A stretch of DNA of 41,211 nt, from positions 1 to 41,211 of the IMG/VR virus record IMGVR_UViG_3300008116_000452. The stretch is one strand, 5' to 3'. The notes below the pieces were generated by a model. That model saw only the letters and a program-made list of their open reading frames with translations, had not been told where the DNA came from and did no database searches. The DNA comes from a virus. Below are positions 3,266 to 39,400 of the stretch, piece by piece; the first letter of the stretch is position 1; each line of letters opens with the position of its first letter. A program made the translations under genes and the position numbers.

Positions 3266-4894
3266 ATGTCAAAGTTAAATTCACTTTTAGAAAGTGCTAA
3301 CTCGTGGAAAGTCATTCAATCTGACGCCGCTAGATTAGCTCGTAAATGGGAAAAGACAGGTTTGTTGGAAGGCCTCAAGTCTGAGGTTGAAAGAAACAAC
3401 ATGTCTTTAATCCTTGAAAACCAAGCAAAACAACTTGTTGTTGAATCTTCACAAACTGGTGGTGGTACCGCTTCTACTGGTACTTTCACCGCAGGTACTG
3501 GTGAACAGTGGGCTGGTATTGCTCTCCCACTCGTAAGAAAGGTATTTGGTCAAATCGCTGCTAAAGAATTCGTCAGCGTTCAACCAATGAGCCTTCCTTC
3601 AGGCCTTGTTTTCTTCCTTGACTTCCAATACGGAACAACCAAATCTGGTTCTCAGTTCACAGTAGGAGGTGATGTATTTGGTAACGGCTCTATGTACGGT
3701 GTTACCGATACTACTTCTGCTCCTGTTAATGGTTTATACGGTGCTGGTAGATGGACATACTCTTCAAACGTAACTTCTTCTGCTGGAACTGGTGCTACTG
3801 AAGCTTCTGCTTCATGGGCTGAAGTTGGATATGATTCTAGTCTTTCTGCTTCTGCCGCTGCTGGTACTTTAAAGAAAATCACTGTTCCTTTAACTTCATT
3901 CAGCAACCCTGATAAAGAAGGTGTTAGAGGTTTCTTCGTTTCTGCTTCTACTATTACTACTAATTACCCACAGTTTAACTACGCAGATACAACTAACGTT
4001 TACCTCTTTACTAACGGTACTAACGGTGTTGACCCATCAGGATTTGCTATTACTTATGTTCAACAACCAACTGATAAATTTAGAGGTGACTTCGAAGATG
4101 GAAACACTGCATTGAACGCTAACAATGCTGTAATTTCTATCCCAGAAATTAACATCAAGATGAAGTCTGAAGCTATTGTTGCTAAAACAAAGAAGCTAAA
4201 GGCAGTTTGGACACCTGAATTTGCTCAAGACTTGAACGCTTACCATAGCTTAGACGCTGAGGCTGAGTTGACAAGTATCATGAGTGAATACATTGCTCTT
4301 GAAATTGACTTGGAAATCCTTGGTATGTTGATTGAAAATGCTCTAACTGTTGATTACTGGTCAGCTGTTAACAACGTAGCTTATGATGGAACTACAAACA
4401 CCCCATCTAACAGTGACTTAGGCTTCTTCAACACACAAGGCCAGTGGTTCCAAACCATCGGCACTAAGATTAACAAAGTTTCTAACAAGATCCACCAGTT
4501 AACCTTAAGAGGAGGTGCTAACTTTATGGTTTGCTCCCCAACCGTCGCTACTATCCTAGAATCAATCCCAGGATTTGCTGCTGCTGACGGAGCTGATGCA
4601 GAAACTATGAACTATGCTTTCGGTATCCAGAAAATGGGTAACTTAAACCAAAAGTACCAAGTTTATAAGAACCCATACATGACTGAAAACACAATCTTGT
4701 TGGGCTTCAAAGGATCTCAGTTCTTGGAAACAGGTGCTACTTTCGCTCCTTATATTCCATTGATCATGACTCCTCTTGTGTACGATCCAGATACCTTTAC
4801 ACCAAGAAAAGGTCTCTTGACTCGTTACGCTAAGAAGATGTTGAGACCTGAATACTATGCTAAGATCTACGTTAACGGATTAAACACCCTCTAA
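3266..4894 (+). CDS. 23: Major capsid protein (T4 gp23-like)
   Basis: A 542-residue major head protein (T4 gp23 is 521 aa). Alignable blocks include ENQAKQLVVE near residue 51, VQPMSLPSGLVFFLDFQYG near 103, KLKAVWTPEFAQDLNAYHSLDAEAELTSIM near 312-341 (read in pieces) and LLTRYAKKM near the C-terminus. By position, gp21 cleavage is likely after Glu60 (QLVVE then SSQTGG), the counterpart of the T4 site after FLTE. The region around residues 120-300 is rich in Ser, Thr, Gly and Asn and diverges from T4. Codons favour AAC, TAC, TTC and AAG, unlike neighbouring genes, which suits very high expression. A strong terminator follows. Confidence 0.95.
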   Translation: MSKLNSLLESANSWKVIQSDAARLARKWEKTGLLEGLKSEVERNNMSLILENQAKQLVVESSQTGGGTASTGTFTAGTGEQWAGIALPLVRKVFGQIAAKEFVSVQPMSLPSGLVFFLDFQYGTTKSGSQFTVGGDVFGNGSMYGVTDTTSAPVNGLYGAGRWTYSSNVTSSAGTGATEASASWAEVGYDSSLSASAAAGTLKKITVPLTSFSNPDKEGVRGFFVSASTITTNYPQFNYADTTNVYLFTNGTNGVDPSGFAITYVQQPTDKFRGDFEDGNTALNANNAVISIPEINIKMKSEAIVAKTKKLKAVWTPEFAQDLNAYHSLDAEAELTSIMSEYIALEIDLEILGMLIENALTVDYWSAVNNVAYDGTTNTPSNSDLGFFNTQGQWFQTIGTKINKVSNKIHQLTLRGGANFMVCSPTVATILESIPGFAAADGADAETMNYAFGIQKMGNLNQKYQVYKNPYMTENTILLGFKGSQFLETGATFAPYIPLIMTPLVYDPDTFTPRKGLLTRYAKKMLRPEYYAKIYVNGLNTL

Positions 4895-4916
4895 TTTAGA
4901 TTTTAATTTTAAAAAA

Positions 4917-4946
4917 GAGAGCCTAGCTTTGCTAGGCTCTTTTTGT
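4917..4946 (+). terminator. Rho-independent terminator after capsid gene
   Basis: A perfect 10-bp stem, AGAGCCTAGC (4918-4927) with GCTAGGCTCT (4931-4940), three-base TTT loop, then a T-rich run. It is flanked by an A-run on the 5' side, which extends the helix. This is the strongest terminator in the window. Confidence 0.93.
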
Positions 4947-4963
4947 TTTCTAGTAGGTGCACT

Positions 4964-4971
4964 ATATTTAT
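4964..4971 (+). promoter_or_regulatory. ATATTTAT box, candidate promoter for enzyme cassette
   Basis: An exact octamer within TATATTTATA, 18 nt after the end of the capsid terminator and 28 nt before the ATG at 5000. It is the only box before 7338, so it would drive all three overlapping enzyme genes. Confidence 0.6.
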
Positions 4972-4999
4972 AGTAAATTAATAAAATAGCACACATAAG

Positions 5000-5914
5000 A
5001 TGAAAGAAACCCCGTCGCAGTTACCTCTACCGGCTTTTGTTATGAATTTCCCATTTACATTAGATACAAGCAATCCCAATAATGTTTGGATGCAGGAATT
5101 AAGCCCTGAGGATTTAAAAATAAATAAAGGAGCAGCTTACCGACAATTTTTAGATTTATATGAATTTGTAGCAGGAAACAGTTTAGTTTATTTGCTTCCC
5201 TCTCAAGGTAACTTTCAAGACCAAGTTTATGTAGCTAATTTAGGGACTTATCTTCCCCATATAAAAAATTCTAACCATATTGTATTATCTAATTTTACAT
5301 CTGAACCTCGTCAAGGAGAAGAAAAGGTAGGACTACCATTTTTTGATTTAATGGGGTATCAAACTCATGTAAGTCCTTTTAAGTGGGAAGGAGAAGCAGA
5401 TTTAAAATATCTTTATGATAACATTTATATTGGGGGGTATGGTATCCGCTCAGATATTCAAACCTATAACTGGATGGAAGAAGAATTTGATATGAATATC
5501 ATAAAACTAGAAATGGTTGAAGATTATTTATATCACTTAGATTGTTCTATTTTCCCGTTAACTAAAGGCAAAACTTTGGTTTGTACGGAGTTGTTCACCC
5601 CTGAAGAGTTAGCGCAATTATCACAATATACTGAAATAATAGACGTTAGTATTGACGATGCATTTAATGGTCTTACTAATTCTGTTAGATTGGGTAATAT
5701 GATTATGTGTGCTTCTAATATTTCCGAATTGTCAAGACACGATGAAAACTATGAAGGTGAAAAAGCTAAAATTAACAGTCTTGAAAAAATCTGCTTCAAT
5801 GAAGGACTCGAACCAGTATTTTTTAACCTTTCAGAATATATGAAATCCGGTGCTATGTTAAGCTGCATGATAATGCATCTAAATTATATTGATTATACAA
5901 AATCTCTACTTTAA
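5000..5914 (+). CDS. DDAH / amidinotransferase-superfamily enzyme
   Basis: A 304-residue protein of the guanidino-group-modifying superfamily (dimethylarginine dimethylaminohydrolase, amidinotransferases, arginine deiminases). These enzymes use a Cys nucleophile with a His and act on arginine-like substrates. Visible signatures in order: NFPFTLD (residues 16-22), DQVYVAN with Asp74, EPRQGEE with Arg104, WEGEADLKYLYD (129-140), GGYGIRSD, LYHLD with His179, and a C-terminal SGAMLSCMIMHLN with the expected nucleophile Cys289. The length fits a single-domain enzyme. The stop overlaps the next start (TAATG). The family is clear from the ordered motifs; the substrate is not. It could be a metabolic enzyme, or could modify arginines in a protein. 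Confidence 0.85.
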   Translation: MKETPSQLPLPAFVMNFPFTLDTSNPNNVWMQELSPEDLKINKGAAYRQFLDLYEFVAGNSLVYLLPSQGNFQDQVYVANLGTYLPHIKNSNHIVLSNFTSEPRQGEEKVGLPFFDLMGYQTHVSPFKWEGEADLKYLYDNIYIGGYGIRSDIQTYNWMEEEFDMNIIKLEMVEDYLYHLDCSIFPLTKGKTLVCTELFTPEELAQLSQYTEIIDVSIDDAFNGLTNSVRLGNMIMCASNISELSRHDENYEGEKAKINSLEKICFNEGLEPVFFNLSEYMKSGAMLSCMIMHLNYIDYTKSLL

Positions 5915-6663
5915 TGGCTCAATATTTAGAAGATTGGTTAGAAAGTGAAGTTGAAGAACTTTCTAAACTAGAAGTAGGAGAACTATCAAACACATTCTTT
6001 TTTAGGGACCCCATGCGTCCCAATTATATAGATTACCAACATTTTTATTCTCCCGCGGATGGTGTAATTTTATACCAAAAATTTATACAAGATGCTACTG
6101 AGCCTATAGTAGAGATTAAAGGTATGAATTATACAATCCAAGATGTTCTTGGAGATAAACGTTATAATAAACCTTCTTTAGTAATTGGCATATTCATGTC
6201 GTTTTATGACGTTCATATAAATAGAATACCATACTCCGGTATACTACAATATAAAGCGCTAGACCCAATTGAATCTACTAATAAACCTATGTTAGCGATT
6301 GAAAAGGATATTTTAAATGCCGCTATTAATCCTAATAATTTAGAATATCTAAAGTATAATGAAAGAATGTGGAATAAAATATACTCACCACAATTAGATT
6401 ATACTTACTATTTAGTACAAATTGCTGATGAGGACGTAAATGTTATAGCTCCCTTTATAAATGACCAAAATGCCCCTGTATCCCAAAACGAACGTTTTTC
6501 ATTAATAAGATGGGGTTCTCAAGTTGATTTAGTACTTCCGTTAGACGAAAGATACGATTTTGACCTTGTCTTAGAAGATGAAATGCACGTAAACGCTGGT
6601 TTGGATAAGTTAGTTAAAATCAACTTCAAAAATGACCCATTTCAACAATACCCCCGAAGCTGA
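5914..6663 (+). CDS. psd: Phosphatidylserine decarboxylase-like protein
   Basis: A 249-residue protein with the whole motif series of pyruvoyl-dependent phosphatidylserine decarboxylases. These are FFFRDPMRP (28-36), YSPADGV with the triad Asp49, EIKGMNYTIQDVLGD (67-81), MSFYDVHINRIPYSG with His101, YNERMW near 148, and ERFSLIRWGSQVDLVLP (193-209), where Gly201-Ser202 would be the self-cleavage site that makes the pyruvoyl group. The Asp, His and Ser needed for maturation are all present. The known family reaction turns phosphatidylserine into phosphatidylethanolamine at the membrane. No membrane anchor is visible, so it may be soluble or act on another serine-bearing substrate. It overlaps the upstream gene by one base and the PhoH gene by 32 bp. 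Confidence 0.87.
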   Translation: MAQYLEDWLESEVEELSKLEVGELSNTFFFRDPMRPNYIDYQHFYSPADGVILYQKFIQDATEPIVEIKGMNYTIQDVLGDKRYNKPSLVIGIFMSFYDVHINRIPYSGILQYKALDPIESTNKPMLAIEKDILNAAINPNNLEYLKYNERMWNKIYSPQLDYTYYLVQIADEDVNVIAPFINDQNAPVSQNERFSLIRWGSQVDLVLPLDERYDFDLVLEDEMHVNAGLDKLVKINFKNDPFQQYPRS

Positions 6664-7312
6664 AGAAATCTTCAGAGAAAAAAAAGTAATAAAAAATCCT
6701 ATTAAGTTTAAAGTTAACTTAAACGAAGAGCAAAAAGAAGCTAAACAAAAAATATTAGATAATACTATAACTCTATTAGCAGGTCAAGCCGGTTCGGGTA
6801 AAACGTTATTAGCTTGCCAAATAGCACTAGACGGCTTAATTCGTAAACTTTACGAAAAAATAATTATAACTCGTCCCACAGTATCTAAAGAAGAAATTGG
6901 GTTTTTACCTGGAGATTTGAGAGAAAAAATGGACCCGTGGGTTCAACCTATATACCAAAATTTATATATTTTATACGATAAAGAAAAAGTAAATAAATTT
7001 ATTGAAGACGGTAAAATAGAAATTGTTCCTGTATCTTTTATGAGAGGTAGAACATTTGTTGATTCCTGCGTTATAGTAGATGAAGCTCAGAACGTTACAC
7101 ATGAACAAATGGAAATGATCGTAACTCGCTTAGGGTTACGTTCTAAAATGATTATTTGTGGCGACACTCATCAAATTGACCTTAAGAAAAAAGAAGATTC
7201 TGGATTCAAATATTTGTATACAGCATCTCGAAAGATTAAAAATTTAGAAGCCTTAACTCTTACTTCAAACCATCGTAATGAAATTGTAGAAGACTTAAGA
7301 GATTATTATTAG
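6632..7312 (+). CDS. phoH: PhoH-like P-loop ATPase
   Basis: A 226-residue PhoH-family ATPase. The Walker A motif GQAGSGKT is at residues 51-58 and Walker B CVIVDEAQN at 146-154. Other family blocks are TRPTVSKEEIGFLPGD (80-95), VSFMRGRTF (134-142), ICGDTHQIDL and the C-terminal LTSNHRNEIVEDL. The PhoH domain is related to the N-terminal part of superfamily 1 helicases; its role in phages is unsettled, though it is frequent in marine phages. The ATG at 6632 lies 32 bp inside the decarboxylase gene, and this start keeps an N-terminal leader of about 30 residues before the conserved EEQKEAKQKIL segment. Confidence 0.93.
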   Translation: MTHFNNTPEAEEIFREKKVIKNPIKFKVNLNEEQKEAKQKILDNTITLLAGQAGSGKTLLACQIALDGLIRKLYEKIIITRPTVSKEEIGFLPGDLREKMDPWVQPIYQNLYILYDKEKVNKFIEDGKIEIVPVSFMRGRTFVDSCVIVDEAQNVTHEQMEMIVTRLGLRSKMIICGDTHQIDLKKKEDSGFKYLYTASRKIKNLEALTLTSNHRNEIVEDLRDYY

Positions 7313-7359: not shown

Positions 7360-7758
7360 ATGTCAGCAGGAAGATACTCATTTACCATAGAACAGGGAGC
7401 CACTATAGATTTTGAGCTTGCATATAAAGACTCAGATGGAAACCCTATTGATTTGACTGGATACCAAGGGAGAATGCAACTTCGCCCTTCAGCCGGGTCT
7501 GAAACTATATATATTACTTTATCAAGTAGTTTAAGTCCTGATAGAACTGGATTAAATTTTAGTGGTTCAAGTGGATTAAATCCTCCTACTTCTGGGACTA
7601 TTGGAATTTTTATTTCGGCATACTCTTCTTCACAATTAAGTTTTAATGAAGCATATTATGATCTAGAATTAGCAACAGGAAGTGCTTATCCTATAGTTAC
7701 TAGATTATTAGAAGGTCAAGTTAAATTGTCTCCAAATATAACATTAGGACTTTATTAA
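7360..7758 (+). CDS. Small beta-sandwich virion protein
   Basis: A 132-residue protein beginning SAGRYSFTIEQGATIDFEL, then YKDSDGNPIDLTGYQGRMQLR and a C-terminal YYDLELATGS...RLLEGQVKLSPNIT. This pattern (a binding domain that describes strands around DGNPIDLTGY) is common in small immunoglobulin-like proteins of T4-like and baseplate-type phage structures. The exact virion location is unknown. It starts the appendage cassette and overlaps the collagen-like gene by TAATG, which suggests coupled production and a shared structure. Confidence 0.82.
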   Translation: MSAGRYSFTIEQGATIDFELAYKDSDGNPIDLTGYQGRMQLRPSAGSETIYITLSSSLSPDRTGLNFSGSSGLNPPTSGTIGIFISAYSSSQLSFNEAYYDLELATGSAYPIVTRLLEGQVKLSPNITLGLY

Positions 7759-8426
7759 TGAGCTGTGGATGCGGAAATGTACCATGCCGTCACATAGTAA
7801 TAACTAATAATAGTAACTGTGGCGATGAAAAAGTAACCGTTACTCAACCTCTTATGGGGGTTGTTCAAGTAACTGCGGTTGGTCCTCGTGGTGCTTCTGG
7901 TTCTTCTGGATCTTCGGGTATTTCTGGCTCTAGTGGTTCTTCTGGATCTTCGGGTACTTCTGGAAACAATGGTTCTTCTGGATCTTCGGGTACTTCTGGA
8001 AACAATGGTTCTTCTGGATCTTCGGGTACTTCTGGCTCTTCTGGTGCTAATGGAGTAGCAGGATTTGGGTGGAATTCTACTGTAGATTTTTATAATCCTA
8101 CTACTAAAAAGATACAAATGGAAAATGTAGGAGATGTTTATAGTGTAGTAGTTACTTTTAGAGCAAAAGCTCCTAATGCTAACCAAACTCATATAGATCT
8201 TTCACTTTCTTCAACTGGAATTACCCCGTATGATAGGGTTTCTAAAAGTTTAGGCTTTATTAAAGGAAATAATGAGTGGGAAAATTATTATGAAATTTTC
8301 AATTTTTATGCTGATGCTGACTTTGTTACTAATGGCAATCAATGGAAAATTGCTGCTATAGGCGGAGATGTATCTGTAGCAAATGCCATTTACTTTATTC
8401 AACGAACCTTTAACGCTGGGGTATAA
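7758..8426 (+). CDS. Collagen-like virion protein, short repeat
   Basis: A 222-residue protein in three parts. Residues 1-41 form a small Cys-rich head (Cys3, Cys5, Cys10, Cys21: MSCGCGNVPC) that runs into VTVTQPLMGVVQVTAVGPRG. Residues about 42-99 are Gly-Xaa-Yaa triplets, mainly GSS, GTS and GNN. Residues 100-222 are a globular, probably beta-sandwich domain (KIQMENVGDVYSVVVTF...). This head-stalk-tip layout is typical of trimeric phage fibres and decoration fibres. Its N-terminus resembles that of the next protein, so both may dock on the same site. Overlaps on both sides are TAATG. Confidence 0.85.
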   Translation: MSCGCGNVPCRHIVITNNSNCGDEKVTVTQPLMGVVQVTAVGPRGASGSSGSSGISGSSGSSGSSGTSGNNGSSGSSGTSGNNGSSGSSGTSGSSGANGVAGFGWNSTVDFYNPTTKKIQMENVGDVYSVVVTFRAKAPNANQTHIDLSLSSTGITPYDRVSKSLGFIKGNNEWENYYEIFNFYADADFVTNGNQWKIAAIGGDVSVANAIYFIQRTFNAGV

Positions 8427-9451
8427 TGGGACGTAATTCAATAAATATAGCAGACCAACCTAACCAAATTGTTCTAGTAGACCAGAACAGAAAGGTTGTT
8501 GTTACGGACAATGTCTGTAATAAGTCTGTTACTATTGAATTACCTCAAACTAATTTAATTGTACAAGAAGAATATACTAAAGTAGTAACAATTAATGAAG
8601 GTGCTACTGGTAAAGCTGGCTCTTCTGGCAGCAGTGGTACTTCTGGTAGAGATGGACGTGATGGAGGAGGAGGTTCTTCAGGTAGCTCAGGTTCCTCAGG
8701 TATAACAGGAACATCAGGTACAACAGGAACTTCAGGTACTGCAGGTACCTCAGGTACTTCAGGGGAAAATGGCACTTCAGGAAGCACAGGATCTTCAGGA
8801 AGTAGTGGAAGTACGGGATCAAGTGGTACTAGTGGCAGCACCGGCTCTTCAGGTAGCAGTGGATCTACTGGAACTTCAGGCACTTCAGGTGAAAATGGTA
8901 CCTCAGGCTCTTCAGGTACCTCAGGAAGTAGTGGCACCTCTGGTTCTTCAGGAAGCACTGGCACTTCCGGCAGCACAGGAACTTCTGGAAGTAGTGGCAG
9001 TTCTGGGGAAAGTGGTACTTCTGGAAGTTCAGGTTCATCGGGAACAACCGGTACTTCAGGTAGTACTGGAAGCTCAGGCTCTAGTGGCTCCTCAGGTGAA
9101 TCTGGCACCTCTGGCAGTTCAGGAACATCGGGCCAAGATGGAGCTTCTTCAGTTCAAAACCCAGGAAATAATAGAGTAATTACTTCTACAGGAATATCTA
9201 CTGGATTACTTGCTGAAGAAAATATGTTATTTACGGGAACTCTTCTTTCTGTAAGTAGCAGTATAGAAATAACAGGTTCATCTACTAATAATATTTTCCT
9301 TATAAAACTTGATAATGGAAATGGTCAAAGTGAAAAAATTAAAGTTAACAATGAAGGTATTTTAATTTTAGGTAATTTAGATTCTGCTCCTACTGCTATT
9401 ACGGGTGGAATTTATTATTCTAATGGAAGTTTTTATTTAGGAATTGAATGA
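8426..9451 (+). CDS. Collagen-like virion protein, long repeat
   Basis: A 341-residue protein with an N-terminal head (1-58, IVLVDQNRKVVVTDNVCNKS), a Gly-Xaa-Yaa stalk of about 180 residues (59-241, GSS, GTS, GST, GTT, GES, GEN, GRD) and a C-terminal domain (242-341, ending AITGGIYYSNGSFYLGIE). The C-terminal ending, with a 'show one frame of data' beta motif, is common at tips of phage fibres. The stalk contains no proline. Fibre or head-decoration function is inferred from layout and from the neighbouring paralogue. Confidence 0.85.
   Translation: MGRNSINIADQPNQIVLVDQNRKVVVTDNVCNKSVTIELPQTNLIVQEEYTKVVTINEGATGKAGSSGSSGTSGRDGRDGGGGSSGSSGSSGITGTSGTTGTSGTAGTSGTSGENGTSGSTGSSGSSGSTGSSGTSGSTGSSGSSGSTGTSGTSGENGTSGSSGTSGSSGTSGSSGSTGTSGSTGTSGSSGSSGESGTSGSSGSSGTTGTSGSTGSSGSSGSSGESGTSGSSGTSGQDGASSVQNPGNNRVITSTGISTGLLAEENMLFTGTLLSVSSSIEITGSSTNNIFLIKLDNGNGQSEKIKVNNEGILILGNLDSAPTAITGGIYYSNGSFYLGIE
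8602..9148 (+). repeat. Gly-Xaa-Yaa coding repeat
   Basis: Nine-base codon triplet repeat encoding GSS, GTS, GST and related triplets. Serine codons are mixed (TCT, TCA, AGT, AGC, TCC, TCG), so the DNA repeat is degenerate although the protein repeat is regular. Confidence 0.85.
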
Positions 9452-9498: not shown

Positions 9499-10560
9499 AT
9501 GGCACAATGGAAAAAAGTAGTTGTCTCGGGCAGTAGTGCAGAATTAGCTGCTCTTAAAGTAGACAACCTAACCTCTGGGCAAGTAGTAATAGGTGGAGGT
9601 TCTGCAGGTAACCTCTCAACCACAGCAATAAATGGTACTGGTAATATAGTAGCGACCACAGCAGCAACCGGATTATCACATTCTGGTTCTTTTAGTGGTT
9701 CTTTCTTTGGTGATGGTTCTGGGTTATCTGGCGTTGCTGCTAGTTTTCCGGTAACTCAAAAAGATCCTTTAGCTGGAACTACACAAGTATTTGTTAATGA
9801 TGGAGCAAGTAAATATGCTACCATATCTCAATTTAATTCTGCCTCATATGTAGGTTTAAGTGGGGATATAACAGCAACAAGTACTGGGGTTGTTACTATT
9901 GCTAACAACGCTGTTACTACTGCTAAAATAGCAACTTCTCTTGGTACACTAGGTGTTAACAATTTTACTGGTAGTTTTACTGGTTCATTTAAAGGTGATG
10001 GTAGTAATTTAACAGGAATCGCAACTACTCTAACAACTGACGCTGATAGTGGTGGTACCCAACCTGTAAGTTTACAAACTGATACCTTAGACATTGCTGG
10101 AGGGACCAATATTACAACTACTGTAGGTAAAGTAGGCAACACAGTCACGGTTACTGCCAACTTAGATAATACTCTTACAGGAGATATTACCTTCTCGGGT
10201 GATGTAATTACAATACAGAAAAAACTCGTAGTCCAGGGCACAGCTTCTTTCCAAAATACTACTAATTTAGAAGTAGCAGATAGATTTGTCCTTTTAGCTT
10301 CGGGTTCTAATTCTACAGGAGATGGCGGTATTGTTATCCAACAAGCTACCCAAGATGTAGGTGAATTATTTGGGTGGGACAGTGGACAAAATAGATGGGC
10401 AGTAACCGGTAGCTTTACAGCCAATCAATCTTCATTTACTCCTGATGCTTATCTTTCCTTAGTTGTTGATGAAGACAACGGAAGTACTGATGTAGCTAAG
10501 TACCAAAAACGAGGTAACATCAAGATTGATACTAACGACGATATTTGGATTTACGCATAA
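9499..10560 (+). CDS. Beta-rich appendage protein with GDGS repeats
   Basis: A 353-residue structural protein. The N-terminal tag MAQWKKVVVSGSSAELAAL is shared in form with the protein at 11013. The middle has repeated strand-turn units, GSFSGSFFGDGSGLSGV (about residues 62-78) and GSFTGSFKGDGSNLTGI (about 156-172), and the segment SLSGDITATSTGVVTIANNAV. This pattern is common in phage fibres and related appendages. The C-terminus (YQKRGNIKIDTNDDIWIYA) may be the tip. Serine, threonine and glycine dominate and no cysteine is seen. The virion site is not known. Confidence 0.83.
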   Translation: MAQWKKVVVSGSSAELAALKVDNLTSGQVVIGGGSAGNLSTTAINGTGNIVATTAATGLSHSGSFSGSFFGDGSGLSGVAASFPVTQKDPLAGTTQVFVNDGASKYATISQFNSASYVGLSGDITATSTGVVTIANNAVTTAKIATSLGTLGVNNFTGSFTGSFKGDGSNLTGIATTLTTDADSGGTQPVSLQTDTLDIAGGTNITTTVGKVGNTVTVTANLDNTLTGDITFSGDVITIQKKLVVQGTASFQNTTNLEVADRFVLLASGSNSTGDGGIVIQQATQDVGELFGWDSGQNRWAVTGSFTANQSSFTPDAYLSLVVDEDNGSTDVAKYQKRGNIKIDTNDDIWIYA

Positions 10561-10577
10561 AATTAATTATATAGGTT

Positions 10578-10763
10578 ATGGGATTACTCGATAAAATACA
10601 ACCAAAATCTCCCCAAGAAACTCCTAAGGATAATTTGGAAAAAAAAGAAATTGAATTTATATTAAATACTATAAAAAACTCTAGCTTTAAAGGTGAAGAT
10701 TTAGACATCCTTTATAGAGTTGTAGTTAAGTTACAAAATCAATATATTAAATTAGAAACATGA
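10578..10763 (+). CDS. Small charged protein, function unknown
   Basis: A 61-residue protein, MGLLDKIQPKSPQE then a Lys/Glu-rich segment and an amphipathic helix (EFILNTIKNS...ILYRVVVKLQNQYIKLE). The C-terminal half has the Leu/Ile spacing of a helical bundle. It follows the 9499 gene by 17 bp and overlaps the next small frame by ATGA. I do not recognise it. Confidence 0.65.
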   Translation: MGLLDKIQPKSPQETPKDNLEKKEIEFILNTIKNSSFKGEDLDILYRVVVKLQNQYIKLET

Positions 10764-10924
10764 CATATGATGTTAATGAATTAAGTCTTCTTAGAGAATC
10801 TCTTAACCATATAACAATAAAAGGGTCTGATGCAAAATTAATAGCTAATCTTCAAACCAAATTAGAACAAAACATCTCAGACCTAAATACTTCTAAAACT
10901 TCAAAGGGGACCACAACTAAGTGA
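10760..10924 (+). CDS. Very small protein (54 aa), function unknown
   Basis: ATG at 10760 overlaps the preceding TGA (ATGA), and TGA at 10922-10924 ends the frame. The product is mostly helical and charged (MTYDVNELSLLRESLNHI, then KLIANLQTKLEQNISDL). Its last codons form the 5' arm and loop of the terminator at 10903-10932, so gene and terminator are packed together. The tight overlap and the similar helical character suggest a pair with the preceding small protein. Confidence 0.6.
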   Translation: MTYDVNELSLLRESLNHITIKGSDAKLIANLQTKLEQNISDLNTSKTSKGTTTK

Positions 10925-14497: not shown

Positions 14498-15432
14498 TGG
14501 CAGAAGAAGGTAAAATCCCCATTCCTAAATCTCAACTTGAGGTTTCTAATGAGCAAGTACAAGCTCGTCAAACATATGGTGTGCCTAATGAATTTACTCC
14601 TACTAGAGCTACGGCCGATAATAGAGTAAATGATCAAGTAGTAAATCCTGCTAGAGCGGCACAAATTTCTGTTAAAGATGAAGCATGGAAACCCTTTACT
14701 ATAGGGCTAAAAGATATTGATGAAACTATTAAATACTATTTTGATAACGTAATTAGACCTACAGTTTCTCAAAGTGGGGCTAGAGTAGCAGTCCCCGTAA
14801 TTTATGGTTCCCCTGAAAGATGGAAATCAGTCCAACGTGACGGATACTATAGAGATGTTAATAATAGAATTATGGCACCTCTTATCATGTACAAAAGAAC
14901 ATCAATTGATAGAAATAGAAGCATGATATCTAAAATTGATGCTGATTTTCCTCAAACTTATGCTGTTTTTCAACAAAAATACACTAAACAAAATTTTTAT
15001 AATCAATTAAGTGTATTAAATGGTGCTACACCTATTAAAACATATCAAGCTGTTGTAATACCTGATTTTGTTACTCTTAATTATTCTTGTGTAATATACA
15101 CCTATTATATGGAACAATTAAACAAAATTATGGAAGCTATAAATTATGCAGCCGATTCATATTGGGGAGATCCTCAACGTTTTAAATTTAGAGCGGGTAT
15201 TGGCTCTTATCAAACGATTACTGAATTAAATGTGGGGCAACAACGTACTGTAAAAGGATCATTTGAAATTAAAATGAATGGTTACCTAATTCCTGATGTA
15301 ATTCAAAAGGATCTTAATGCTGTTAAAAAATTCTCAAGTGATTCAAAAGTTATAATAGGTCAAGAAACTGTACAAAATTTAGGACGAAATACTAATAATG
15401 GTTTTATTGAAGATATAAACACTAATCTTTAA
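14497..15432 (+). CDS. 15: Tail completion / sheath terminator (T4 gp15-like)
   Basis: A 311-residue protein of the gp15 family (T4 gp15 is 272 aa), the hexameric ring at the head-proximal end of the tail. Visible features are VPVIYGSPERW (residues 99-109), APLIMYKRTS (127-136), YQAVVIPDFVTLNYSCVIYT (183-202, the conserved strand block), MEQLNKIMEAINYAADSYWG (205-224) and the C-terminal KGSFEIKMNGYLIPD. The N-terminal 60 residues are extended and charged. It follows gp14 by TAATG and precedes the sheath, consistent with T4 order 13-14-15-18-19. Confidence 0.85.
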   Translation: MAEEGKIPIPKSQLEVSNEQVQARQTYGVPNEFTPTRATADNRVNDQVVNPARAAQISVKDEAWKPFTIGLKDIDETIKYYFDNVIRPTVSQSGARVAVPVIYGSPERWKSVQRDGYYRDVNNRIMAPLIMYKRTSIDRNRSMISKIDADFPQTYAVFQQKYTKQNFYNQLSVLNGATPIKTYQAVVIPDFVTLNYSCVIYTYYMEQLNKIMEAINYAADSYWGDPQRFKFRAGIGSYQTITELNVGQQRTVKGSFEIKMNGYLIPDVIQKDLNAVKKFSSDSKVIIGQETVQNLGRNTNNGFIEDINTNL

Positions 15433-15449
15433 TTTTAAACTAAAATTTT
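15431..15449 (+). terminator. Weak AT-only hairpin, possible terminator
   Basis: AATTTTA (15431-15437) pairs with TAAAATT (15441-15447) across a three-base loop. The stem has no G-C pair, so its strength is doubtful. It overlaps the stop codon and precedes the next box. Confidence 0.3.
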
Positions 15450-15457
15450 ATATTTAT
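15450..15457 (+). promoter_or_regulatory. ATATTTAT box, candidate promoter
   Basis: An exact octamer, only 4 nt before the ATG at 15462. As at 214, this implies a leaderless or nearly leaderless mRNA if the box acts as a -10 element. Confidence 0.5.
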
Positions 15458-15461
15458 TATC

Positions 15462-15710
15462 ATGGAAAATGTTACAAAACTTACTGAACAAGAGTTACAA
15501 CAAATTAAAGAGTTGCAACAACAACAAGAAACTTTAATAGCTAATTTTGGTCAAATTGAATATCAAATTCAAGTTCTTGAATTGCAAAAAGAAAAATTTG
15601 TTGAACAATTAGAACAAATTAGAATTAAAGAGACTGAAGTAGCTAAAGAGTTAAGTCAAAAATATGGTAATGGTTCTATTGATTTAGAAAAAGGAATATT
15701 CATAAAATAA
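15462..15710 (+). CDS. Small coiled-coil protein, function unknown
   Basis: An 82-residue protein that is almost wholly a Gln/Glu-rich coiled coil (TEQELQQIKELQQQQETLI, then GQIEYQIQVLELQKEKFVEQ) with a short C-terminal YGNGSIDLEKGIFI strand. The architecture resembles small prefoldin-like or hub-assembly proteins. It is its own transcription unit between tail completion and sheath, flanked by an ATATTTAT box on each side. No family can be named with confidence. Confidence 0.78.
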   Translation: MENVTKLTEQELQQIKELQQQQETLIANFGQIEYQIQVLELQKEKFVEQLEQIRIKETEVAKELSQKYGNGSIDLEKGIFIK

Positions 15711-15733
15711 CGCCTTTTTTGAAAATTTTTTTA

Positions 15734-15741
15734 ATATTTAT
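15734..15741 (+). promoter_or_regulatory. ATATTTAT box, candidate promoter for sheath gene
   Basis: An exact octamer, 40 nt before the sheath ATG. The leader then holds repeated ATTAATTAATTAATTT, which is self-complementary but AT-only. Confidence 0.58.
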
Positions 15742-15781
15742 CTAAGACAATTAATTAATTAATTTTTAATCTCGAAAAAAC

Positions 15782-17515
15782 ATGGCAGAATTAATAATTT
15801 CTCCGGGGGTATTTAACAATGAAAATGTCCCCACAATTCTTGAAGCAGCCGCCGCTCCTATTGGTGCTGCTATCGTAGGTCCTGCAATTAAAGGTGCAGT
15901 AGGTATTCCTACCCTTGTCACCACTTACAGTGACTATTTAACAAAATTTGGTGGTGCTATTGTTAGTGGTGGTATTGAATACTCCTACTTCACTGGTATC
16001 TCTGCTCAAAACTACTTTAAGCAAGGTGGTACTAGTTTATTGGTAACCAGAGTTGCTAGTGGTTCATTTACATCCGCTACTTCTACTAATGTTGCTACCG
16101 GAAGTAATGCTGGTTCAGGAGCTAACAACGTATTTACTCTAAAAACTATCTCTCAAGGTACTATTATGAACAGTTCTGGAAGTGAAACAACCGGAAATGC
16201 TCTTGCTAATGGTACTAAAGATAACTTAAGATGGGAAATCACCAACGTAGACTCTGGTTCTGGTATCTTTACCCTCTTAATTAGACAAGGTGATGACAGA
16301 GCATCAGATAAAAACGTTCTTGAAACATGGAGAGGTGTTTCTCTTGACCCAACTAGAGAAGACTATATTGCTAAAGTAATTGGTAACCAAGTCTTTACTG
16401 TAGGCGACGATGGAGGTAATGCTTACGTTTCTGTAACTGGTGAATACCCAAATAAATCTAACTTCGTCGTTGTTGGTTCTGTTCTTAAACCAACCCCTCG
16501 TTATTTAGATGGTGCAGGTAACTTTAAGGCTGAATTTACTTCTTCACTTCCTAAAGCCCAAAGTGGTTCATTTGAAAATGCTGTTGGAAGCCTTTTCCCA
16601 GCAGCCGCAGCTACTAACTTCTACCAAGCTATCACAGAAACTAACACTCAAGGTTTAATTGCTGACAACTATACTGCTTCACTTAACTTGTTGAGAAACA
16701 AAGATCAGTATGCTTTCAACGTAATTAGTGTTCCTGGTTTAGTTTACGAATTTGCAGCTCACAAAACTATTCTTGATACTCTTGTTACTAACACCACTAC
16801 TAGAGGTGATAGTATTTTACCAATTGACTTGGTTGACTACGGTGCAGGTACCTCAGAGGTTGTTTCTCAAGCTTCTTCTTTAAACACTAACTATGCTGCG
16901 GCTTACTGGCCTTGGTTGTTAGTTAGAGATGAAAACACTGGTGCTAACGTATGGTGCCCTGCTTCAACAGTTATCCCTTCAGTCTATGTCTTCAATGACA
17001 ATACTTCTGAAGCGTGGTTCGCTCCTGCAGGTTTCACTAGAGGTACAATGCCAAACGTTGTTGCTCCTGAAAAAACTCTCCCAAGAGCGCTTAGAGATAC
17101 ACTTTACAACGGTAAAATTAACCCAATCGCTACATTCCCCGGAACTGGTGTTGTAGTTTACGGTCAGAAAACATTACAGTCTATTGCATCTGCAACTGAC
17201 AGAGTTAATGTTAGAAGATTGTTGATTGCGTTAAAACAATTCATTAACTCAGTTTCCCAAAACTTAGTATTCGAACCTAACTCTTTACAAACCAGAAACA
17301 GTTTCTTGAGTGTTGTTAACCCATACTTGGAAACAGTTCAACAAAACCAAGGTTTGTATGCGTTCAAGGTTATCATGGATGCTTCGAACAACGGACCTGA
17401 TGTTATCGATAGAAACGAGTTGAGAGGTGCTATTTACCTACAACCTGTTAAAACCGCTGAATTTATCGTTCTTGACTTCAACCTCCTACCAACAGGAGCT
17501 GAATTCCCAGCGTAA
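15782..17515 (+). CDS. 18: Tail sheath protein (T4 gp18-like)
   Basis: A 577-residue contractile sheath subunit (T4 gp18 is 659 aa). The N-terminus ISPGVFNNENVPTILEAAA and GAAIVGPAIKG, and the C-terminal segments INPIATFPGTGVVVYGQKTL and NVRRLLIALKQFINSVSQ, are typical of contractile sheaths. The C-terminal DRNELRGAIYLQPVKTAEF is the part that interlocks subunits around the tube. The middle (residues about 90-280) is the variable surface region. Codons favour AAC, TAC, TTC and CTT, like the capsid gene. A strong terminator follows at 17541. Confidence 0.95.
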   Translation: MAELIISPGVFNNENVPTILEAAAAPIGAAIVGPAIKGAVGIPTLVTTYSDYLTKFGGAIVSGGIEYSYFTGISAQNYFKQGGTSLLVTRVASGSFTSATSTNVATGSNAGSGANNVFTLKTISQGTIMNSSGSETTGNALANGTKDNLRWEITNVDSGSGIFTLLIRQGDDRASDKNVLETWRGVSLDPTREDYIAKVIGNQVFTVGDDGGNAYVSVTGEYPNKSNFVVVGSVLKPTPRYLDGAGNFKAEFTSSLPKAQSGSFENAVGSLFPAAAATNFYQAITETNTQGLIADNYTASLNLLRNKDQYAFNVISVPGLVYEFAAHKTILDTLVTNTTTRGDSILPIDLVDYGAGTSEVVSQASSLNTNYAAAYWPWLLVRDENTGANVWCPASTVIPSVYVFNDNTSEAWFAPAGFTRGTMPNVVAPEKTLPRALRDTLYNGKINPIATFPGTGVVVYGQKTLQSIASATDRVNVRRLLIALKQFINSVSQNLVFEPNSLQTRNSFLSVVNPYLETVQQNQGLYAFKVIMDASNNGPDVIDRNELRGAIYLQPVKTAEFIVLDFNLLPTGAEFPA

Positions 17516-33452: not shown

Positions 33453-36400
33453 ATGGCTGAAAAATTTCTAATAGATAGAGTTAAGGCAGGCACATCAACC
33501 GTAGGGGGGAGTGGTTTTTGTATCCCATACTCATTAACTGATGCTAATGATGTAACAGTTCCTAAAGGAACTATTTCTTTTTTTACTCCTGGGAGTGCTA
33601 CTCAAAATGTAACTTTAGTAGAGTACATTTATGTTGATAATTTTACATCTAACAATAATAATATTAGCCCCTACCTTACAGGTAGCTCAGCGGGTAATGT
33701 TTTAATTCATAAAAAAAGTGATCCTACTAAATACGCTATTTTTCCTTATTATAGTGTATCTAGCTTTCCTTTTACCTCTCAAGTTAGATTTAAAATAGCT
33801 AGTGGTAGTATAACAGGATCTTCAGCATATAGCTCAGCTACTCCTTTTTCTACTAATGATGAATTATGTCTAGTATTAGACTATAATTCGGGAACCGATG
33901 GAGGATCTACATCTTCAGGAACAAATGGAACAGCAGGTTCAAGTGGCACAACTGGAACAAGTGGTACAACGGGGACAAGTGGTACGGCTGGTTCTAGTGG
34001 TACTTCAGGAAATAGTTTTTGTTTGTTTAGATCTGATTATGATTCTACTACTTCTTCCCCCCAAGACCCAGGATACGGTGAATTTAGATTAAGTGGGGCT
34101 TGGAATGTTGATGCTACTAGAATTGATATAAGTGAGTTTACTAATTTTGATGGTAATATTGAAACTCTCTTAAATGAGATTAGTCTTCCTGCTTTATTAA
34201 AAATTACTAGTGTTTCTAACCAAGCTGTATGGAAACTTTTAAGACTCACAGCAAGAACTGACCAGACTAATTATGTATATTTTACTGTTACTGAAGTAGC
34301 TCGTGGTAGTACTTTACCATCTAATGGAGATACTTTTTGTTTTGTAATTACAGAAAATGGTACTTCAGGATCAAGTGGTTCATCAGGTTCTTCAGGTTCA
34401 AGTGGTACTACTGGAAGTAGTGGCTCTTCAGGAAGTTCAGGAACTACAGGATCTAGTGGTTCTTCAGGAACAACTGGCTCTTCAGGGTCTAGTGGCACTT
34501 CAGGTACAAGAGGTTCATCAGGTTCCAGTGGAAGTTCAGGAACAACCGGCTCTTCAGGTTCTTCAGGAACAACTGGCTCTTCTGGTAGTAGTGGATCTAC
34601 AGGAACTTCAGGATCAAGTGGAACAACCGGCTCTTCAGGCTCAAGTGGTACTTCAGGAAGTAATGGAACCTCAGGTTCTTCAGGCACAACTGGTTCTTCT
34701 GGTTCTTCAGGAACAACAGGAAGTAGTGGTTCCTCAGGTACTTCAGGATCAAGTGGTACCTCTGGTTCATCAGGAACTACAGGTTCATCTGGCTCTTCTG
34801 GTACAACTGGTTCTTCTGGGTCTAGTGGTACAACTGGAAGCAGTGGCAGTTCGGGCACAACTGGTTCAAGTGGGAGCAGTGGTACTTCAGGCTCATCTGG
34901 TACTACAGGTTCAAGTGGCTCTTCAGGCACAACTGGAAGTAGTGGTAGCAGTGGAACAACTGGAAGTTCAGGTTCATCAGGCACTGCAGGTTCAAGTGGT
35001 TCAAGTGGCACCTCAGGATCTACTGGAACATCAGGTAGCAGTGGTTCTTCAGGCACTACAGGCTCAAGTGGATCTAGTGGAACTTCAGGCTCATCTGGAA
35101 CATCTGGAAGCTCAGGTACAAGTGGTAGCTCAGGTTCTTCAGGTAGTTCGGGCTCTTCAGGAACTAGTGGTATAGATGGATTTTGTATAGAATACAAATA
35201 CAAAACTGGTACTAGTACAGTTACAGTTAATAATGGAGAATTTTATTATAATAGTGCTAATTTAACCATAACCCAAAGTTTAGTTACAAACGATCCACAA
35301 ATTAACTTTGATGTATATGTAGTTGCTTTAGCCTCTCAAGTAGATAGTGGTAGTATATTTTTAATTAGTACCGGTAGTTCTGCTTTTGCATTTGCTGGAA
35401 GGTTTAATGACATATCAACTGATGGTACTTATGCATATTATACTTTATCTACCCTCCCCGACAACAATTTAACAAATAACGATGTAACTTGTTTTGAAAT
35501 TGTAGCAGACGGCAAGTCTGGTACCTCAGGTACAACTGGAAGCAGTGGATCGAGCGGTTCATCAGGAAGCAGTGGTTCAAGTGGTAGTTCAGGAACTACA
35601 GGTAGTTCTGGTTCTAGTGGTACATCAGGAACAACCGGAAGCTCCGGTAGTTCAGGTACAACTGGCTCTTCCGGCTCTTCGGGCACTACAGGTAGTAGTG
35701 GTAGTAGTGGAACTACAGGTTCTTCAGGTTCCTCAGGCACCACAGGTTCAAGTGGTTCTAGTGGAACAACAGGATCTAGTGGGTCTTCTGGTACAACTGG
35801 CTCTTCGGGTTCATCAGGTACTACTGGTTCTAGTGGATCTTCAGGCACTTCAGGTAGTAGTGGAACTTCTGGCTCAAGTGGTACTACAGGTTCATCAGGA
35901 AGCTCAGGCACAACCGGAAGTAGTGGTAGTAGTGGTACAACCGGAAGCTCAGGTTCTTCTGGTACTACTGGTTCTAGTGGAAGTAGTGGAACATCTGGTT
36001 CTTCAGGAACTACTGGTTCATCAGGAAGTAGTGGAACAACCGGTTCTTCTGGTTCAAGTGGAACAACCGGTAGTAGTGGTAGTAGTGGAACTACGGGCAC
36101 AAGTGGTTCTTCAGGAACAACTGGTTCTAGCGGATCTTCAGGTTCTTCAGGAACAACAGGCTCTTCAGGTAGTTCTGGTACAACTGGAAGCAGTGGCTCT
36201 TCAGGTACAACAGGATCTTCAGGATCTAGTGGAACATCTGGTTCTTCAGGAACTACAGGATCTAGCGGAAGTTCAGGAACTACAGGTAGTTCTGGTTCTA
36301 GTGGAACTACAGGCTCATCTGGTTCAAGTGGCACCTCAGGCACAACTGGTTCTTCTGGTTCTTCAGGAACAACAGGAAGTAGTGGTTCCTCAGGTACTTC

Positions 36401-39400
36401 AGGATCAAGTGGCACGACTGGTAGTAGTGGTTCTTCCGGTACTGCAGGCTCTTCAGGCAGTTCAGGAACAACAGGTTCATCTGGTAGCTCGGGTACTTCT
36501 GGTTCATCTGGTACTACTGGAAGCAGTGGTTCTTCTGGTACAAGTGGTTCTTCGGGAACAACTGGCTCTAGCGGATCTTCAGGCACTTCAGGTTCATCTG
36601 GTACTACTGGAAGCAGTGGTTCCTCAGGTACTACTGGTTCATCCGGCTCAAGTGGGACAACAGGATCTTCAGGTACCTCAGGCTCATCTGGTACTACTGG
36701 TTCAAGTGGTAGTTCAGGAACTACAGGAAGCTCAGGTTCAAGCGGAACTACAGGTTCATCAGGTAGCTCAGGCACCTCAGGATCTTCAGGTACTACAGGA
36801 AGTAGTGGCAGCAGTGGTACTTCTGGGTCTAGCGGAACAACCGGTTCCTCAGGTAGTTCAGGAACAACTGGAAGTAGTGGCTCAAGTGGCACAACAGGAT
36901 CTTCTGGCAGCTCAGGAACTACAGGTTCATCAGGAAGTTCAGGTACTACAGGAAGTAGTGGTTCTTCAGGTACCTCTGGATCATCGGGAACAACTGGATC
37001 TTCGGGAAGCAGTGGAACAACGGGTTCAAGTGGTTCTAGTGGCACCTCAGGTTCATCAGGCACAACAGGTTCTTCTGGTTCTTCGGGTTCAAGTGGATCA
37101 AGTGGAACAACAGGATCTAGTGGCTCTAGTGGCACTTCCGGTTCTTCAGGTACAACTGGTTCTTCAGGCTCATCTGGAACTACAGGTTCAAGTGGTTCTT
37201 CAGGTACTTCAGGTTCAAGTGGAAGTTCAGGCACTACCGGGTCTAGTGGTTCATCAGGTACAACAGGTTCTTCAGGTTCAAGTGGTACTACTGGCTCTTC
37301 AGGCAGTTCTGGTACAACTGGAAGTAGTGGAAGTAGTGGAAGTAGTGGAACAAGTGGCTCAAGTGGAACAACAGGTTCTTCAGGTAGCTCAGGCACCTCA
37401 GGATCATCGGGTACAACTGGTTCATCTGGAAGTTCAGGTACTTCAGGTTCTTCAGGCACAACCGGATCTTCAGGTACAACCGGATCTAGTGGAAGCTCAG
37501 GTACAACAGGAAGTAGTGGTAGTAGCGGAACAACTGGAAGCTCAGGGTCTTCAGGTACTTCAGGTAGTTCCGGTACAACAGGTTCTTCAGGTTCTTCAGG
37601 TACAACTGGTTCAAGTGGATCAAGTGGTACTTCAGGTTCAAGCGGAACTACAGGTTCATCAGGTAGCTCAGGTACTTCAGGTTCATCAGGCACTACAGGA
37701 AGCAGTGGTAGTTCAGGAACAAGTGGTTCTTCAGGAACTACTGGTTCATCCGGCTCATCAGGTACCACAGGTTCTTCAGGCTCCTCAGGAACAACTGGTT
37801 CTTCAGGTAGCTCAGGTACATCAGGATCATCGGGTACCACAGGTTCTTCTGGTAGCAGTGGTACCTCAGGTTCTTCAGGAACTACCGGTTCATCTGGAAG
37901 TTCAGGCACTTCAGGTTCTAGTGGTACAACTGGATCTAGTGGAAGTAGTGGAACAAGTGGTTCAAGTGGTACAACTGGATCTTCGGGTAGTTCAGGTACT
38001 TCAGGATCTTCAGGCACAACCGGAAGTAGTGGTTCTAGTGGTACAACAGGATCATCAGGATCTAGCGGTACTTCAGGTTCTTCAGGAACTACAGGTTCAA
38101 GTGGAAGTAGTGGCACCTCTGGTTCTAGTGGAACAACTGGTTCATCTGGAAGCTCTGGTACAACTGGTTCTTCAGGCAGTTCTGGTACAACTGGAAGCAG
38201 CGGATCTTCAGGAACTAGTGGGTCTAGTGGAACTACCGGAAGCTCAGGATCATCAGGTACAACTGGTTCAAGTGGAAGCAGTGGCACAACAGGTTCTTCA
38301 GGTTCTAGTGGTACTTCTGGATCCTCAGGCACAACAGGTAGTAGTGGTTCTTCTGGAACGAGCGGTTCTAGTGGTACTACCGGCTCTTCAGGCAGTTCAG
38401 GCACATCTGGTTCTTCCGGTACTACCGGTAGTTCCGGTTCTAGTGGCACTTCCGGTTCTTCAGGAACTACTGGTTCATCTGGAAGCTCAGGTACTTCAGG
38501 TTCTAGTGGCACAACGGGATCTAGTGGAAGTAGTGGCTCTTCAGGCACTAGTGGTTCATCAGGTACAACTGGATCTAGTGGGTCAAGTGGCACATCTGGT
38601 TCTTCAGGTACAAGTGGTTCTAGTGGAACAACAGGAAGTAGTGGAAGTAGTGGTACATCAGGTTCTTCAGGTACAACAGGATCTTCAGGTTCAAGTGGTA
38701 CTACGGGCTCATCTGGTAGTTCAGGTACTTCAGGTTCCTCAGGTACAACAGGAAGTAGCGGTTCATCTGGAACTACTGGATCTTCAGGAAGCAGTGGAAC
38801 AACAGGCTCTAGCGGAAGCTCAGGTACTTCAGGATCAAGTGGTACAACAGGAAGTAGTGGAAGTTCGGGTACATCTGGTTCTTCGGGCACAACTGGTTCT
38901 AGCGGTTCAAGTGGTACTACAGGATCATCAGGAAGTTCAGGCACATCAGGATCATCTGGCACAACGGGTTCCTCAGGAAGTTCAGGCACTTCAGGATCTT
39001 CAGGCACAACCGGTTCTAGTGGAAGTAGCGGAACTAGTGGTTCAAGTGGCACAACCGGTTCTTCAGGTTCTTCAGGCACAAGTGGTTCTAGTGGTACTAC
39101 CGGCTCTTCAGGTAGTTCAGGTACAACAGGAAGTAGTGGATCTAGTGGAACCTCAGGTTCAAGTGGAACAACCGGATCTTCTGGAAGTTCTGGTACAACT
39201 GGAAGCAGTGGTTCATCGGGGACAAGTGGTTCATCAGGCACAACAGGATCTTCAGGTTCAAGTGGTACTTCAGGTTCTAGTGGAACGACCGGTTCTAGTG
39301 GAAGCTCAGGCACATCAGGTTCAAGCGGAACTACAGGCTCATCAGGTAGCTCAGGTACTTCAGGTTCCTCAGGCACAACAGGATCTTCAGGTAGTTCTGG

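Follow-up and report, generated by a model that had tools for sequence, protein, structure and literature searches.

A conserved phage gene pair of the DDAH and phosphatidylserine decarboxylase folds and its possible role in converting arginine to putrescine

Introduction

What are three genes of metabolic type doing directly behind the capsid gene of a T4-like phage? The question is raised by a 41 kb virus record (IMG/VR record IMGVR_UViG_3300008116_000452) with gp23 capsid, T4-type head protease, sheath and tube genes. The whole stretch of 41,211 nucleotides was analysed and is called the window here. A sequence-only reading had labelled the three products as a DDAH-fold enzyme, a phosphatidylserine decarboxylase (PSD)-like enzyme and PhoH. 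It had offered, as a hypothesis, that the trio remodels host membrane lipids or amino acids, or modifies a virion component.

The cassette and its setting

The layout described by that reading is borne out. Three overlapping ORFs on the + strand occupy the coordinates given in Table 1. The DDAH-fold and PSD-like ORFs have a single base, 5914, in common (within TAATG), and the overlap between the PSD-like and PhoH ORFs is 32 nt (6632-6663). The upstream neighbour is the gp23 major capsid gene (3266-4894), followed by a terminator and then by the TATATTTATA box. On the other side, ORF 7360-7758 has a weak match to tail-fibre assembly proteins (phrog_3304, E 5e-5), and collagen-like repeat proteins come after it.

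Table 1. Features of the cassette in window coordinates
Feature	Position	Strand	Basis or remark
Intrinsic terminator that follows the capsid gene and sets the cassette apart	4914..4944	+	Strong; 14-bp stem and T run
TATATTTATA box, putative late promoter of the cassette	4963..4972	+	ATATTTATA copy statistics
DDAH-fold enzyme, predicted L-arginine dihydrolase	5000..5914	+	304 aa; PF19420; nearest solved structures ArgZ/AgrE
TAATG stop/start overlap, DDAH-fold/PSD-like	5912..5916	+	Likely termination-reinitiation coupling; junction conservation
PSD-fold pyruvoyl decarboxylase, predicted soluble ornithine decarboxylase	5914..6663	+	249 aa; PF02666
PhoH-family ATPase, probably co-transcribed neighbour	6632..7312	+	226 aa; PF02562

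The three genes had also been proposed to share one promoter-like box. All eight exact + strand copies of ATATTTATA in the window are intergenic, where the intergenic share is 5.7% (binomial P ~1e-10), and seven of them sit 10-50 nt 5' of an ORF. Their positions are 4964, 7338, 9456, 12815, 17574, 18181, 19283 and 28321. The box is probably the late promoter of this phage lineage, which suggests that the cassette is expressed with the structural genes. The cassette probably forms one late transcript whose translation would be coupled, in keeping with the earlier proposal.

In the window, collagen-like tail proteins with GSS/GTSG repeats are found at 7758-8426, 8426-9451 and 33453-40394. The same repeats open an antisense frame of 1525 aa (35438-40015), in all likelihood an artefact of how the repeats are composed.

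Conservation in related phages

Three IMG/VR scans with overlapping sets gave 239 loci and 114 distinct gene pairs. The scans favour near relatives, and the counts describe the window's lineage. The DDAH-fold gene lies directly 5' of the PSD-like gene in 229 of the 239 loci. In five more the two genes are further apart, with an ORF between them or on opposite strands (two of these loci are one contig in both orientations). The last five have one enzyme alone, and every one of them runs into a contig end. Of the 114 distinct pairs, 97 retain TAATGGC at the junction. Among near relatives dN/dS is ~0.04-0.12 for both genes, compared with 0.11-0.19 for the capsid gene. Both genes of the pair are under strong purifying selection in this group.

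PhoH is a different matter. It matches PF02562 at 217.9 bits against a cut-off of 27, with the GxAGSGKT P-loop and the DE positions conserved, and it directly follows the pair in 214 of the IMG/VR loci. However, it is a neighbour in the window's lineage only. No PhoH gene was seen beside the pair in the examined stretches of Bacteroides-type and Campylobacter phages or in the bacterial loci examined. Within the lineage, it is sometimes swapped for a divergent PhoH or split from the pair by a homing-endonuclease-like ORF. The adjacency in related phages, whose absence had been named beforehand as grounds for refutation, is thus found for the two enzymes, whereas the idea of the trio as a functional unit is not supported. 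PhoH is probably outside the pathway of the pair.

Among 102 distinct cases, the PhoH slot holds a protein at >=60% identity to that of the window in 78 and a divergent one at 40-59% in 24. Two divergent PhoH types sit in the slot directly after PSD (loci L051, L066, L082 and others), as if replaced in place. ORFs assigned by eye as homing-endonuclease-like lie between PSD and PhoH at L049, L060 and L063 (6733-7269), and one lies between the DDAH-fold gene and PSD at L123 (1919-2668). In many Campylobacter phages, Hef homing endonucleases overlap the PSD gene.

The DDAH-fold enzyme

The first protein passes the Pfam gathering cut-off for PF19420 (DDAH_eukar) by a small interval, at 25.9 bits against 23. 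Its AF2 model has a pLDDT of 90.1, and Foldseek supports the pentein fold (AF2 input alignments, for both enzymes, left out rows from the phages collection). The nearest solved relatives by sequence (E 1e-15), profile (2e-23) and fold (1e-19) are ArgZ and AgrE, ahead of DDAH and amidinotransferases, and solved DDAHs fit the model less well. Equivalog cut-offs lie well above its scores for both arginine dihydrolase (NCBIfam NF052232, an equivalog domain; 73.1 bits against 450) and dimethylargininase (NCBIfam; 79.3 bits against 300).

One clue to the substrate comes from single residues. D74, N80, R104, E130, R150, H179 and C289 do not vary in the phage and bacterial sequences, and these include the Cys-His-Glu catalytic set of the pentein fold (C289, H179, E130). 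D134 was also considered, but it is D or E once the bacterial rows are included. In alignment with AgrE, N80 corresponds to Asn71, R104 to Arg90 and R150 to Arg139. Asn71 sets arginine dihydrolases apart from DDAH, which has Asp at this site, and the arginines of the Arg90/Arg139 type hold the alpha-carboxylate of the substrate in relatives. These residue roles are general background on ArgZ/AgrE, further supported solely by PDB titles such as ArgZ(N71S). Since the Asn71 equivalent and the carboxylate-binding arginines are kept, the expected substrate is free arginine and the expected product ornithine. By sequence, profile and fold the protein stands nearer to arginine dihydrolase than to DDAH, which corrects the label first given to it.

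The PSD-like enzyme

The second protein matches PF02666 (PS_Dcarbxylase) at 86 bits against a cut-off of 22. The PADG aspartate (D49), the catalytic histidine (H101) and the GS self-cleavage site (G201/S202) are invariant. The corresponding residue of E. coli PSD, His-144, is the catalytic histidine and is essential for activity (PMC7952604). Loss of catalytic residues in close relatives had been named beforehand as grounds for refutation; in both enzymes they are retained. The AF2 model (pLDDT 87.7) has E. coli PSD and PsiD as solved fold relatives.

Is it then a phosphatidylserine decarboxylase? Several observations do not fit. The best score against the NCBIfam PSD equivalogs is 71 bits, where the cut-off is 183. 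The N-terminal hydrophobic helices of the type II PSD controls are missing, as judged by hydropathy, which detects hydrophobic stretches only: the best 19-residue value is ~1, compared with >2 in canonical type II PSDs. The substrate loop is remodelled relative to these enzymes. Where canonical PSDs have QIAGLVARRI, the PSD-like clade has QIAD-x-D-V-(N/D)-x-I, with the acidic residue D172. This clade is separate from the two canonical PSDs tested (support 100/100). Gene context differs as well. A pssA gene is directly 3' of psd in both annotated canonical controls, whereas none was found near the PSD-like gene in 29 bacterial loci. Acidic residues where other PSDs have two arginines would fit a cationic substrate such as ornithine. 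Taken together, it is likely that phosphatidylserine is not the main substrate of this enzyme.

The pair in other phages and in bacteria

Campylobacter phages have both enzymes (40 and 39 records), and in the one genome that was looked at their genes are widely separated. In six Bacteroides DAC-type phages the pair is adjacent. Near the pair in one of the latter, DAC19, there are two dUTPase/dCTP-deaminase-like genes and one IMP dehydrogenase-like gene (10273-10791, 15387-15884 and 15895-16869). A contig binned in a Flavobacteriales MAG (NZWA01000018.1) carries a phage-type pair at 68 and 74% identity, which hints at a flavobacterium host.

In bacteria the order of the pair is reversed, with PSD ahead of DDAH, and the identity to the window is 44-53%. 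These copies are closer to the window than those of Campylobacter or Bacteroides phages. In ten bacterial operons, a MATE exporter gene is directly 3' on the same strand. The ten come from Actinomycetota, Verrucomicrobiota, Latescibacterota, Campylobacterota, Gammaproteobacteria and Eisenbacteria. At Saccharothrix-type loci no MATE gene was seen. In Verrucomicrobiales the MATE gene is distant and convergent, and is followed by genes for a PotD/PotF-like polyamine-binding protein and a histidine kinase. Because these Verrucomicrobiales are related and their wider gene order is also partly conserved, the PotD link represents few independent events. At L094 (9314-12711) and in other Verrucomicrobiales the binding protein and the kinase, a PAS-type sensor, possibly form a polyamine-sensing unit.

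The pair is rare, occurring in 2/289, 2/80 and 1/298 genomes in three phyla (samples that include the search-seeding genomes). Its two members co-occur strictly. A DDAH-fold gene was present in 23 of the 23 tested bacterial genomes that carry the PSD-like gene. In one of them it lies ~600 kb from the PSD-like gene, adjoining a MATE gene. Within one actinobacterial order (299 genomes), the same three genomes carry both genes at E<1e-100 and the remaining genomes carry neither at that threshold; the chance of this is ~2e-7. Co-occurrence holds across four gene arrangements. Since the genes co-occur in several orders, and even without linkage, it is very likely that the two proteins serve one pathway on a small molecule.

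Does the pair stand in for the usual putrescine route in bacteria? The answer from their genomes is mixed. Saccharothrix genomes with the pair have genes for the ODC/ADC family, AdoMetDC and spermidine synthase clustered elsewhere. With this separate standard polyamine cluster, the pair may not serve the basic supply of putrescine in bacteria, and the product may be exported for another purpose. Verrucomicrobiales with the pair mostly have a single, LysA-sized ODC/ADC family member, and AdoMetDC was mostly not found in their genomes.

A proposed pathway and its alternatives

The reading favoured here runs from arginine through ornithine to putrescine, which fits both enzymes and the polyamine-binding neighbour. 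The strict co-occurrence of the two genes and the MATE exporter in ten bacterial operons also speak for it, while the equivalog cut-offs that the proteins fall short of and the separate polyamine cluster of Saccharothrix speak against it. The DDAH-fold enzyme would act as an arginine dihydrolase, converting free L-arginine to ornithine, CO2 and 2 NH3. The PSD-fold enzyme would cleave itself at Gly201/Ser202 to form a pyruvoyl cofactor and then decarboxylate ornithine to putrescine. Expression of both would be late, probably as a single transcript, and TAATG would couple their translation. Putrescine, or spermidine made from it by the host, might neutralise packaged DNA or support late translation. 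When cells are depleted of polyamines, T4 synthesises less DNA and its virion maturation declines, and T4 particles contain polyamines (reviewed in PMC7226272). The chance that substrates, step order, product and use are all as described seems about even. The suggestion of amino-acid remodelling was right in kind, and is here made specific.

What if the folds are read correctly but the order is not? Agmatine deiminases belong to the DDAH superfamily. A pyruvoyl enzyme could first convert arginine to agmatine, which the other enzyme would hydrolyse, or citrulline could be the intermediate and yield N-carbamoylputrescine; the end product would still be a polyamine precursor. Pyruvoyl arginine decarboxylases do exist in phages (PMC9992855). 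However, the invariance of R104 and R150 leads one to expect an amino acid rather than agmatine as substrate, and the Asn71 equivalent favours full hydrolysis to ornithine over a stop at citrulline. Such a rearranged route is therefore unlikely, if worth keeping in mind. Only slightly less probable is that the pair makes some other small cationic or guanidino metabolite, exported through MATE by bacteria and used by phages to modify DNA or virions or to signal, for instance by amidino transfer from arginine and decarboxylation of the acceptor. The exporter in the operon, the patchy, accessory distribution of the pair, the DDAH fold of amidinotransferases and the nucleotide-metabolism genes near the pair in DAC19 all fit this idea. 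On the other hand, arginine dihydrolases clearly come nearest among the solved relatives, and the phages do not conserve a third enzyme together with the pair.

Two further explanations concern the pair as such. The PSD-like protein might be a true phosphatidylserine decarboxylase that remodels host membrane lipid while the DDAH-fold enzyme acts separately. Its score well above the PF02666 cut-off and its intact catalytic residues are as this would require, and viral psd genes have been read as lipid synthesis (PMC11360552). Yet the lack of hydrophobic helices, the altered loop and acidic motif, the absence of pssA near 29 bacterial loci and the strict pairing with a DDAH-fold gene make it improbable. 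They also count against the membrane-lipid role suggested earlier. The least probable explanation is that unrelated auxiliary genes gathered by chance where recombination is frequent, next to the capsid gene. PhoH variants and homing-endonuclease-like ORFs are indeed gained and lost there, but the recurrence of the same two families in different gene orders, even unlinked, and the strong purifying selection on them largely refute it.

Implications

No description of the DDAH-fold/PSD-like pair was found in the literature searched, which omitted most subscription journals. A marine survey treats viral psd as lipid synthesis and lists PS decarboxylase and amidinotransferase as separate auxiliary genes (PMC11360552). 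A survey of the polyamine enzymes of viruses detected no arginase homologue among phages and says nothing of phosphatidylserine decarboxylase (PMC9992855). It is a serious possibility, though one put a little short of even, that the PSD-like protein is the first of a new enzyme class, a soluble pyruvoyl decarboxylase of the PSD fold that acts on ornithine (or arginine). With arginine dihydrolase it would then form an undescribed arginine-to-putrescine route, in phages of at least three lineages and in a rare operon of bacteria that has its own dedicated MATE exporter.

If this is true, phage genes labelled "phosphatidylserine decarboxylase" and "amidinotransferase" are misnamed members of one pathway, and viral psd genes of this kind should be read as metabolic instead of as genes for lipid synthesis and immune signalling. 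Phages would own a second pyruvoyl-enzyme fold for putrescine. They would also own the arginine-to-ornithine step, whose arginase form the PMC9992855 survey did not find in them. The predictions of the pathway are specific and can be checked with two purified proteins.

Comparison with known systems

The closest known counterparts of the first enzyme are cyanobacterial ArgZ (Sll1336) and AgrE (Alr4995). By sequence alignment, the equivalents of Asn71, Arg90, Glu118, Arg139 and His168 are kept, as is the catalytic Cys in the C-terminal part. However, the phage protein stands alone at 304 aa, without the C-terminal ornithine cyclodeaminase domain, and identity is ~22%.

Type II PSDs such as Paracoccus Psd have the PF02666 fold, the PADG Asp, the catalytic His and the GS site in common with the second enzyme. 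They differ in their membrane helices, their substrate loop, an Arg-Arg where the phage clade has its acidic motif, and the company of pssA. A PSD fold working on a free amino acid has a precedent in PsiD, the fungal L-tryptophan decarboxylase and the second-best solved fold match, although this match is weak (E 2e-4, 11% identity) and the substrate of PsiD is aromatic.

Among phages, Campylobacter phage NCTC12673 has homologues of both enzymes in one genome at 37-40% identity, annotated as "amidinotransferase" and "phosphatidylserine decarboxylase". Unlike those of the window, the two genes are unlinked, and their names are probably misleading. Finally, phage-encoded pyruvoyl ornithine/arginine decarboxylases of the AdoMetDC fold are already known to feed putrescine (Lin et al., 2023, PMC9992855). 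These are likewise phage pyruvoyl enzymes on the way to putrescine, but they are built on a different fold.
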